Source: Pseudomonas asiatica (GTDB lineage Bacteria > Pseudomonadota > Gammaproteobacteria > Pseudomonadales > Pseudomonadaceae). Taken from it: a DNA stretch of 64,000 nt. The notes beneath the pieces were generated by a model. That model did not search any database, had not been told where the DNA came from, and saw nothing but the letters and a program-made list of their open reading frames with translations. Where the stretch lies: assembly GCF_040214835.1 (NCBI RefSeq), contig NZ_CP157874.1, positions 5,544,501 through 5,608,500 of the forward strand, read 5' to 3'. The position numbers and the translations under genes are program-made. The stretch's first letter is position 1. Every line of letters begins with the position of its first letter. Positions 15,699 to 19,353 of this stretch are shown one piece after another.

Positions 15699-17540
15699 AT
15701 GCCTGATTATCGTTCCAAGACTTCCACCCAAGGCCGCAACATGGCCGGCGCCCGTGCCCTGTGGCGCGCCACCGGGATGAAGGACGAAGACTTCAAGAAA
15801 CCGATCATCGCCATCGCCAACTCGTTCACCCAGTTCGTCCCGGGCCACGTGCACCTGAAGGACCTGGGCCAGCTGGTCGCCCGCGAAATCGAACGCGCCG
15901 GTGGCGTGGCCAAGGAATTCAACACCATCGCGGTCGATGACGGCATCGCCATGGGCCACGACGGCATGCTCTACTCGCTGCCAAGCCGCGAGATCATCGC
16001 CGACGCCGTGGAGTACATGGTCAACGCCCACTGCGCCGACGCCATCGTGTGCATCTCCAACTGCGACAAGATCACCCCCGGCATGCTGATGGCCGCCCTG
16101 CGCCTGAACATCCCGGTAATCTTCGTCTCCGGCGGCCCGATGGAAGCCGGCAAGACCAAGCTGGCCAGCCACGGTCTGGACCTGGTCGACGCCATGGTCA
16201 TTGCCGCCGACTCCTCGGCTTCCGACGAAAAAGTCGCCGAATACGAGCGCAGCGCCTGCCCGACCTGCGGTTCGTGCTCCGGCATGTTCACCGCCAACTC
16301 GATGAACTGCCTGACCGAAGCCCTGGGCCTGGCCCTGCCGGGCAACGGTTCGACCCTGGCCACCCACGCCGACCGCGAGCAGCTGTTCCTCACCGCCGGC
16401 CGCACCATCGTCGAGCTGTGCAAGCGCTACTACGGCGAGAACGATGAGTCGGTACTGCCGCGCAACATCGCCAACTTCAAGGCGTTCGAGAACGCCATGA
16501 TGCTCGACATCGCCATGGGCGGCTCGACCAACACCATCCTGCACCTGCTGGCCGCCGCCCAGGAAGCCGAGGTGGCGTTCGACCTGCGCGACATCGACCG
16601 CCTGTCGCGCAAGGTGCCGCAGCTGTGCAAGGTTGCGCCGAACATCCAGAAATATCACATGGAAGACGTGCACCGTGCCGGCGGCATCTTCAGCATCCTC
16701 GGCTCGCTGGCCCGTGGCGGCCTGCTGCACACCGACCTGCCGACCGTGCACAGCCGCAGCATGGAAGAAGCCATCGCCAAGTGGGACATCACCCAGACCG
16801 ATGACGAAGCCGTGCACACCTTCTTCAAGGCCGGCCCTGCCGGCATCCCGACCCAGACGGCATTCAGCCAGTCGACCCGTTGGGAATCCCTGGATGACGA
16901 CCGTGAGAACGGCTGCATCCGCAGTGTCGAGCACGCCTATTCGCAGGAAGGCGGCCTGGCCGTGCTGTACGGCAACATCGCGCTGGACGGCTGCGTGGTG
17001 AAAACCGCCGGTGTCGACGAGTCGATCCTGGTGTTCGAAGGCACCGCGAAGATCTTCGAGAGCCAGGACAGCGCCGTACGCGGCATCCTCGCCGACGAAG
17101 TGAAGGCCGGCGACATCGTGATCATCCGCTACGAAGGCCCGAAAGGTGGCCCGGGCATGCAGGAAATGCTGTACCCGACCTCGTACCTGAAGTCCAAGGG
17201 CCTGGGCAAGGCTTGCGCCCTGCTCACCGACGGCCGCTTCTCGGGCGGCACCTCGGGCCTGTCGATCGGCCATGCCTCGCCGGAAGCCGCCGCTGGCGGC
17301 GCCATCGGCCTGGTGCGCGACGGCGACAAGGTGCTGATCGACATCCCGAATCGTTCGATCAACCTGCAGGTCAGCGACGAAGAGCTGGCCGAGCGCCGTG
17401 TCGAGCAGGACAAGAAGGGCTGGAAACCGGCTGAAGTACGCCCACGCAAGGTGACCACCGCGCTGAAGGCCTATGCCCTGCTGGCGACCAGTGCCGACAA
17501 GGGCGCTGTGCGTAACAAGGCGATGCTGGAAGGGCTGTGA
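15699..17540 (+). CDS. ilvD: Dihydroxy-acid dehydratase IlvD
   Basis: A 613-residue Fe-S dehydratase that forms 2-keto acids in isoleucine, valine and pantothenate synthesis. The cluster-binding cysteines are in [10 protein letters not shown] and [24 protein letters not shown]. The Mg/substrate region and the C-terminal [14 protein letters not shown] are intact. A clear ribosome site (CCAGGAGTG) precedes the ATG. The 271-bp upstream stretch holds a possible TAGAAT -10 element (15520-15525) and a 38-codon open frame (15561-15677) with no branched-chain codon run, so attenuation is not supported. A strong terminator follows. Confidence 0.97.
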
Positions 17541-17563
17541 GGCTCTGACGGTATGAATGAAGA

Positions 17564-17590
17564 ACCGGCGCCCTGGGCGCCGGTTTTTTA
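17564..17590 (+). terminator. Rho-independent terminator of ilvD
   Basis: Ten-base stem ACCGGCGCCC / GGGCGCCGGT with a one-base loop as written (T), followed by TTTTTT. A textbook intrinsic terminator 24 bp after the ilvD stop. Confidence 0.92.
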
Positions 17591-17600
17591 TGCCTGTAAG

Positions 17601-18278
17601 GGCCCTTTCGCGGGTAAACCCGCTCCCACAGGTACAGTGCCTGGCTCAAAGGCTGCGGAGTCCTTGTGGGAGCGGGTTTACCCGCGAAGAGGCCTCTCCC
17701 ACAGGTACAGCGCCTGGCTCAAAGGCTGCGGAGTCCTTGTGGGAGCGGGTTTACCCGCGAAGAGGCCTCTCCCACAGGTACAGCGCCTGGCTCAAAGGCT
17801 GCGGAGTCCTTGTGGGAGCGGGTTTACCCGCGAAGAGGCCTCTCCCACAGGTACAGCGCCTGGCTCAAAGGCTGCGGAGTCCTTGTGGGAGCGGGTTTAC
17901 CCGCGAAGAGGCCTCTCCCACAGGTACAGCGCCTGGCTCAAAGGCTGCGGAGTCCTTGTGGGAGCGGGTTTACCCGCGAAGAGGCCTCTCCCACAGGTAC
18001 AGCGCCTGGCTCAAAGGCTGCGGAGTCCTTGTGGGAGCGGGTTTACCCGCGAAGAGGCCTCTCCCACAGGTACAGCGCCTGGCTCAAAGGCTGCGGAGTC
18101 CTTGTGGGAGCGGGTTTACCCGCGAAGAGGCCTCTCCCACAGGTACAGCGCCTGGCTCAAAGGCTGCGGAGTCCTTGTGGGAGCGGGTTTACCCGCGAAG
18201 AGGCCTCTCCCACAGGTACAGCGCCTGGCTCAAAGGCTGCGGAGTCCTTGTGGGAGCGGGTTTACCCGCGAAGAGGCC
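17601..18278. repeat. Tandem array of eight identical 73-bp REP-derived repeats
   Basis: Units begin at 17661, 17734, 17807, 17880, 17953, 18026, 18099 and 18172, with partial copies at 17625-17660 (one T/C difference) and 18245-18278. Each unit has the palindromic REP core TGTGGGAGCGGGTTTACCCG, a second short arm CTCCCACAGG and a spacer TACAGCGCCTGGCTCAAAGG. An inverted REP (17601-17632) heads the array. Outer arms TGTGGGAG / CTCCCACA and the inner CGGGT-TT-ACCCG let every unit fold into a hairpin. It fills the gap between the convergent ilvD and pchP genes, ending 20 bp from the pchP stop. The 73-bp period keeps all three forward frames open; these frames are not genes. Confidence 0.97.
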
Positions 18279-18297: not shown

Positions 18298-19353
18298 TTA
18301 CTGAATCTGCTCCGGCGTCACGATCACCCAGTTCTTGTCCGCCGTCACCGGCAGCCCTTCCTTGGCCTGCGCCGCGGCATTCCTGGCAATCATCCCGTTC
18401 ATCTGGTCCATGTACTTGGCCTTGCGGTTTATCCACAGGTGGATGCCACCTTTGCCCACATCCACCCCATGAAACTGCATGTAGCCGTCGCTGGTCGGCG
18501 TATCGCCCCCCACCAGCACCGGTTTCTTCCACTCATCGATATAGGTCAGGATCGCCGCCTGCTTGCCTGCCATCCAGGTGGCCGGGGTCCACAGGTACGG
18601 GGTCAGCTCCAGCCCCACGTTGGCCTTGGCATCATAGTGCCCGGCGCTGATCTGCTTGCGCGCGGTGGTCAACTGGCCGCTGGCGCGGTCCTTCAGCAAC
18701 AGGCTCACGCCAATCACATTCTGCGGTTTCACGTTGTAGCCGTACTTGGGGTCCGACGCGACCATGCGCACCAGCTCCTCGGAAGCAGCGGAAATCACAT
18801 AGACCTCGATACCGTTCTCCATCAGCTTGTTGTACAGCTCGGCCTGGCCCTTGAAGACCTTGGGCGGCTGTACCTCGATGGCCTTGACCTGGTCCCCTTC
18901 GTAATAGGTGGCCGGGATCGGTTTGCCGGAGGCCATCAGCTCATCCACCTGCACCTTCAGCTCCTGCAGGGTAAAGCCGGAGAACACCTGGGCCACCCAC
19001 GGGTAGCAGACCATGTCGTCCACTTCGCACAGCCGGTAGTAGTAACTGAACAGGCTTTCCTTGTGCTCGGCGGTGTCCTTGAACGGCATCAGCTTCAACG
19101 AGGGGTCGAGCTTGTCGCGGCTCAGCAGGCCCTTGTTTTCCATGAACGGCAGCAAGGCCTCTTCAAGGTCGTAGCGGTAACTGGTGTTGTCCATGTCGAA
19201 GACAGCGTAGTTACCCTTGTTGGCATTGGCGGCAATCATGCCGTCGAGCTGCCTGGCTGCCTCGGCGGGCCAGTGCTTGAGCTCGGTGGCGAAGGTTTCG
19301 ATACTGAACAGCAGGGACAGGCCGATGGCGACGGCTTTCGGAGCGAACTTCAT
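18298..19353 (-). CDS. pchP: Phosphorylcholine phosphatase PchP (HAD superfamily, periplasmic)
   Basis: A 351-residue protein with an N-terminal signal peptide ([22 protein letters not shown]). HAD motif I is [18 protein letters not shown], motif II is VISAASEEL and motif III is [11 protein letters not shown]; these match the DMDNT, SAA and GDTP(x)SD elements known for P. aeruginosa PchP. The enzyme releases choline and phosphate from phosphorylcholine, working after phospholipase C on host or environmental phosphatidylcholine. Length is normal. The gene is convergent with ilvD across the 73-bp repeat array. Confidence 0.9.

Follow-up and report, generated by a model that had tools for sequence, protein, structure and literature searches.

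A head-to-tail array of one-armed REPIN units between ilvD and pchP of Pseudomonas asiatica, probably grown from a single founder

The gap between the convergent genes ilvD and pchP of Pseudomonas asiatica lies in a stretch of 64,000 nucleotides (contig NZ_CP157874.1, positions 5,544,501 to 5,608,500; here called the window) and carries a tandem array of 73-bp units, each holding one repetitive extragenic palindromic (REP) sequence. Very probably, this array goes back to a pre-existing REP doublet forming hairpin (REPIN) in the gap, whose spacer and second REP (REP2) were duplicated and of which one unit was then amplified, most likely into a near-neutral array.

Tandem Repeats Finder (TRF) placed the array at 17623-18278 with a period of 73, 9.0 copies, 99% matches, 0% indels and a score of 1305, the remaining TRF rows of the window scoring only 61 and 58. 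It consists of nine units of 73 bp, the ninth of which has 72 bases of its own, with the right flank supplying the closing base of that 73-mer. Copies 2-9 are mutually identical, showing 584 bp free of any difference, and copy 1 (17623-17695) has a T at 17638 in place of the C found in copies 2-9. The initial annotation had described eight identical 73-bp repeats; the unit length and head-to-tail arrangement were right, but there are nine units and copy 1 is one base off. As it had also stated, the array begins with an inverted REP pair, the arms of which (17601-17635 and 17660-17694) are 89% complementary and separated by a short spacer, as in a REPIN. All eight joints read AAGAGGCC + extra T + CTCCCACAGG, that is, the end of REP2, an extra base and only the head of the first REP (REP1); the proposed fusion of the REP2 end with the REP1 tail is thus correct as a junction and had to be amended in its letters. 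The REP1 stem is missing at eight of eight joints, and spacer and REP2 were retained by the eight added units. Across the array, the REP heads are ordered as one minus, then nine plus (-+++++++++). The nine plus-oriented REPs belong to one class with a constant spacing of 73 and therefore form an evenly spaced array of one REP type; units 2-9 do not hold two inverted REPs each, as REPINs do, and the array, running head to tail, does not show the alternating REP orientation of a BIME-2 or modular BIME (bacterial interspersed mosaic element).

The same gap in relatives suggests what the locus looked like before amplification. Loci were collected by a phosphatase scan of genome contigs, the best 80 of 468 being kept; 22 of these 80 were left out since ilvD did not lie beside pchP in the expected orientation, and 58 were counted. 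At least one REP head was present in 41 of the 58 gaps, none in 17 and more than four in not a single one. Exactly one inverted pair of the order "-+" was found in 21 relatives, 13 of which had it spaced 43-44 bp. The P. asiatica gap measures 757 bp; minus 8 x 73 bp it comes to 173 bp, compared to 174 in L055 and 173 in L061. L055, from Pseudomonas inefficax, contains one REPIN followed by a right flank, AGCACAGGCACCACATGGC, identical to that of the array. The stem of that REPIN belongs to a different type, and a comparison of the two gaps over 174 positions showed 21 differences and one gap. The alignment across relatives covered gaps below 230 bp from loci up to L106. The T of copy 1 also occurs in L055, and the simplest descent of copies 2-9 is therefore from one derived unit. 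The single REPIN in relatives and the length of the gap after subtraction bear out the earlier proposal of fusion and tandem amplification of one REPIN. As a separate observation, seven loci (L056, L057, L062, L064, L075, L078, and L082) have 1.5-2.0 kb between ilvD and pchP.

Together, these features suggest a simple course of events. The REPIN between ilvD and pchP would predate the split from near relatives; spacer and REP2 would have been duplicated with loss of the REP1 stem at the joint, an end state visible in the anatomy, the order of events being our reading of it. In the simplest order, the T to C change would have occurred in the new unit after duplication and before multiplication, and the one derived unit would then have given rise to eight extra copies via unequal crossing over and/or replication slippage acting on perfect 73-bp direct repeats. 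Either process suffices to amplify perfect direct repeats.

The expansion seems confined to this lineage, since the array joint (up to one mismatch) was found eight times in the P. asiatica genome and in none of the 397 others among 398 sampled Pseudomonas genomes. It is also probably recent, unless recombination has homogenised the copies, because copies 2-9 show zero differences; the initial annotation's view of a recent expansion holds with this proviso. Since the split from L055, 8.2 changes among the copies would be expected at the per-lineage divergence of ilvD, 10.8 at that of pchP and 35.2 at that of the gap, and 0 were observed. Without homogenisation, the expansion would fall within the last 36%, 28% or 9% of the time since that split (95% level; ilvD, pchP, and gap, respectively), an estimate which assumes independent, neutral change per copy.

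REPs are abundant in the P. asiatica genome, with 953 REP stem palindromes versus 4 in a reversed control, thus forming a family of many dispersed copies. A cluster sample of 1,655,500 bp of the 5.85 Mb, partly selected for holding matches, contained 774 head motifs grouped into 398 clusters, and doublets account for 326 of the clusters. At least six heads were present in four clusters of this sample, the present array included, and the other three alternate in orientation; these lie on G000 C1, the P. asiatica contig, at 624003, 1157337 and 2748236, their head counts being 8, 8 and 6 and their periods 119, 165 and 163 bp. Outside the sample, a second same-orientation REP array occurs at 1794439-1794661 of the same contig (L222, L248). 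Its four REPs follow one another at distances of 70-72 bp, and an inverted pair includes the first of them; its copies are diverged, and the repeated spacer is unlike that of its inverted pair. The claim that REPs elsewhere are single pairs was accurate for the window, where it applies to 17 of 17 clusters (head motif), but does not extend to the genome with its three further clusters of 6-8 heads and the 1.794-Mb array.

Regarding other genomes, at least three REPs with the same head in one orientation, 56-86 bp apart, were present in 13 of the 398, P. asiatica included; for this reason, the ilvD-pchP array is of a known kind, and it is distinctive by near identity at nine copies and by its visible founder. 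The loci fetched include a run of ten REPs in G289, and TRF matches in the fetched same-orientation arrays range from 82 to 97%, compared to 99% here. Three arrays resemble ours: behind a complete REPIN come units from which the REP1 stem is missing, and the left break lies in the REP1 head. In G270 C23 (L246), the REPIN is followed by three 60-bp units, each made up of REP2 and, after a short joint, the CTCCCACA part of REP1; G006 C114 (L278) shows three joints of the truncated design with a period of 94, running into the contig end; and G286 C57 (L221) has two extra 86-bp units, its left break being likewise in the REP1 head. They differ from our array in having two to three joints each, other spacers and periods of 60, 94 and 86 bp, and the differing spacers and periods indicate separate events. 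G270 C23 and G286 were detected with patterns that did not require the REP1 head; G006 is no independent evidence on the breakpoint because its search pattern demanded that head. The arrays of G093 (L219) and of the 1.794-Mb locus (L222) also start with "-+"; their spacers are unlike those of their own REPINs and the breakpoint is not common to them.

The break falls at the boundary of REP1 head and stem (CTCCCAC) in P. asiatica, G270 and G006, and inside that head in G286. We therefore put forward, as a rather doubtful generalisation, that one-armed REPIN arrays may form in a stereotyped way, by a break where head and stem of REP1 meet, and that loss of the arm would remove the long hairpin and permit a high copy number. 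If true, contingency-like tandem repeats could originate from REPINs through a defined founding step. G267 and G034 each have a single REPIN with CTCCCACA directly behind it or within a dozen bases and with no duplication, an arrangement which might resemble the state before amplification. The idea that CTCCCACA is a common follower of REPs was rejected: 36 of the 398 genomes fit the loose pattern, mostly, as judged by eye, with single occurrences, other sequences or another REP family. At least three tandem CTCCCACA joints were seen, again by eye among the loose-pattern matches, only in P. asiatica, G270 and G006.

A shorter array might also have been expanded in the deposited sequence, an artefact which we regard as very improbable. 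Two further short-period arrays lie at the ends of draft contigs (G178 L225 and G006 L278), indicating that such arrays do trouble assemblies. However, the P. asiatica genome is one contig of 5.85 Mb with 100% completeness, copy 1 has a distinguishing base, the right end meets the flank common to L055, and the 656 bp of the array are far below ordinary long-read length. The G178 array (C208, L225 1-291) is itself a perfect 40-bp REP array with 7.3 copies and 100% matches at the start of its contig, where the draft assembly probably breaks.

How the first joint arose allows for more than one answer. Slippage of the right flank CACAGGCAC against the REP1 tail CACAGGTAC was rejected as the sole cause because it would give the joint GAGGCCAGCACAGG, which differs from the actual one. 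Judged from the letters, the founding joint would be compatible with template switching plus a small base change as well as with deletion of the REP1 hairpin; both fit. The latter could have been part of a possible, though not the favoured, variant of the founding step, compatible with amplification of a REPIN-derived unit: complete REPINs would have been joined at GGCC, the REP1 hairpin then deleted from this palindrome between two CT dinucleotides, and the 73-bp unit amplified. Such a route yields the extra T exactly if REP1 at that time began with GGCCTCT, as it does in L055, L065 and L068, but the P. asiatica REP1 today begins with GGCCCTT. Ten bases within the G006 joint resemble, by eye, its REP1 5' flank, the 3' flank being beyond the contig end, whereas the G270 joint does not fit this deletion. 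None of 119 genomes contained the palindromic intermediate (up to two mismatches); it may be unstable or may never have existed.

The REP-associated tyrosine transposase (RAYT) offers another route, in which the enzyme would cut one strand close to REPs and the array would be built by rolling-circle synthesis or strand transfer, as proposed for BIMEs by Nunvar et al. The P. asiatica genome encodes a RAYT (NF047646, 154 bits) at 5622594, 60 kb from the array, with a REP doublet carrying the array's stem on either side (L134 1251-1995), so that this gene looks cognate to the array's REPs; a second RAYT at 645359 is flanked by another REP type. Published work lends the route some plausibility: rolling-circle formation of BIMEs by RAYT has been proposed, slippage and recombination alone being deemed unlikely to account for BIME variation (PMC2817692), and TnpA-REP cuts near REPs at C|T (PMC8266576). 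Nevertheless, the joint lies at the base of the REP1 stem, i.e., inside a REP and not beside it, and the published basic module has two direct and one inverted REP, while the array units have one REP. Involvement of RAYT in building the array is thus unlikely in our view, and amplification of a duplicated spacer-REP2 unit by slippage or unequal crossing over is preferred.

The neighbouring genes set the frame for any functional role, and their convergent orientation around the array agrees with the initial annotation (ilvD by PRK12448 and TIGR00110, pchP by PDB 4as2). The features of the region are compiled in Table 1. Only 19 bases lie between the pchP stop codon and the nearest REP, the last of the array, and a putative ilvD terminator precedes the array, which is why the array is likely to sit past that terminator and within the 3' region of the pchP transcript. 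Terminator-like sequences, according to our own pattern, were present in 39 of the 58 gaps of relatives; an automatic scan of the P. asiatica region returned no terminator-like and no promoter-like site and did not report the repeat at 17557-17591.

Table 1. Features of the ilvD-pchP region (positions in the window)
Feature	Position	Strand	Evidence
REP1 of the founder REPIN, the sole complete inverted REP in the array	17601..17635	-	Inverted repeat; aligned position in relatives
Intact founder REPIN (REP1, spacer, REP2)	17601..17694	.	DNA and minus-strand RNA fold
Unit copy 1, T at 17638 common to L055	17623..17695	+	Sequence comparison
Unit copies 2-8, identical 73-mers	17696..18206	+	Sequence comparison
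Unit copy 9, 72 identical bases, then right flank AGCACAGGCACCACATGGC (same in L055)	18207..18278	+	
Whole tandem array, period 73, 9.0 copies	17623..18278	+	TRF
ilvD, dihydroxy-acid dehydratase, left neighbour, convergent	15699..17540	+	NCBIfam PRK12448 equivalog, 1184 bits; TIGR00110, 837 bits
Inverted repeat with a terminal T run, likely serving ilvD as intrinsic terminator, before the array	17557..17591	+	Inverted-repeat list
pchP-like phosphorylcholine phosphatase, right neighbour, convergent	18298..19353	-	PDB 4as2, E 1.7e-179; open reading frame

The intact REPIN folds strongly, reaching -39.6 kcal/mol as DNA (z -9.15) and -67.4 kcal/mol as minus-strand RNA (z -9.83). One array unit compared to shuffles gave z -1.92 as DNA and -1.75 as RNA, the last unit with its flank z -0.94, and REP2 plus joint intermediate values (DNA, z -2.44 and -2.52). 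The additional hairpins might be maintained by selection, serving as terminators, gyrase sites or stabilisers of the pchP 3' end, which is distinctly improbable. Gyrase binding by BIME-2 and an aid of REPs to Rho-dependent termination have been reported (PMC2817692), the last REP is close to the pchP stop codon, REP2 plus joint retains some folding, and the whole array as RNA reached z -16, with 0 of 20 shuffles as good. On the other hand, any array containing complementary parts should fold this strongly, a single unit is scarcely more structured than shuffles, the ilvD-pchP gap contains no match to the integration host factor (IHF) consensus, and P. asiatica is the sole carrier among the sampled genomes. 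Since the unit folds are weak and the scans gave no terminator, promoter or IHF match, a specific function is unproven and near-neutral amplification by slippage or unequal recombination is most likely. The terminator, gyrase-site and mRNA-stabiliser roles suggested initially were accordingly not borne out, the likely ilvD terminator already preceding the array. A read-through transcript of pchP would carry extra short hairpins, and a modest effect on the 3' end, dependent on copy number, would be possible.

Several points weigh against the reconstruction from a single, near-neutral REPIN. A single REPIN between ilvD and pchP is common but not general, since the gap is free of REP heads in 17 of the 58 relatives and has other REP content in 20. 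Simple slippage between REP1 and the flank as they are today would not yield the additional T of the joint. Recombination still acting in an older array could also keep the copies identical, the copy number of nine rests on the deposited contig, and the neutrality of the array is an assumption.

A coding origin of the array was rejected: open reading frames of 212, 365 and 603 aa span it merely because the 73-mer unit has no stop codon in any plus frame, which also applies to 8.2% of 20,000 base shuffles. When proteins were searched with the 212-aa frame, over a capped set of 7989 scored candidates, at least eight matches of 29-40% identity were obtained, with no near-identical strain version of this frame among the matches listed. 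These predicted "proteins" in public data (P0001-P0008) appear by eye to be frames over other REP arrays and are likely spurious genes. The locus thus illustrates how tandem REP arrays generate long spurious open frames. The Rfam scan of the window at gathering thresholds revealed no match.

The founder copy, the single-copy state in sister species, the joint and the ordering mutation are all visible at one locus, making the step from REPIN to array reconstructable and testable at the bench. Variation in copy number from strain to strain is plausible; if it occurs, the array would be usable as a marker of the variable number tandem repeat (VNTR) type.

Among open-licence full texts, mostly covered by titles and the starts of abstracts, no publication on the ilvD-pchP array or on the one-armed design was found, and passages of PMC1525189 and PMC12306157 added nothing on tandem arrays. 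Many Pseudomonas REPs are described as "reiterated in tandem" (PMC3733652). The array's REP2 contains the 24-mer TGTGGGAGCGGGTTTACCCGCGAA of the Pput2 REP class of Pseudomonas putida GB-1 (PMC2817692), an entry which refers to a REP class of the GB-1 genome and not to the ilvD-pchP array. With BIME-2 and modular BIMEs, our array shares a head-to-tail basic module derived from inverted REPs; however, BIMEs alternate in REP orientation (PMC2817692), while in the present array the one inverted REP is followed by nine that share a single orientation. For Pseudomonas fluorescens SBW25, Bertels and Rainey (2011, PMC3116915) reported tandem REPIN clusters as well as arrays consisting solely of evenly spaced REPs of one type, and our array resembles the latter. 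The units of the SBW25 REPIN clusters are whole REPINs with flanks, whereas eight units here lack one REP stem, and the largest of those clusters has four REPINs plus one REP, compared to the nine near-identical copies between ilvD and pchP.
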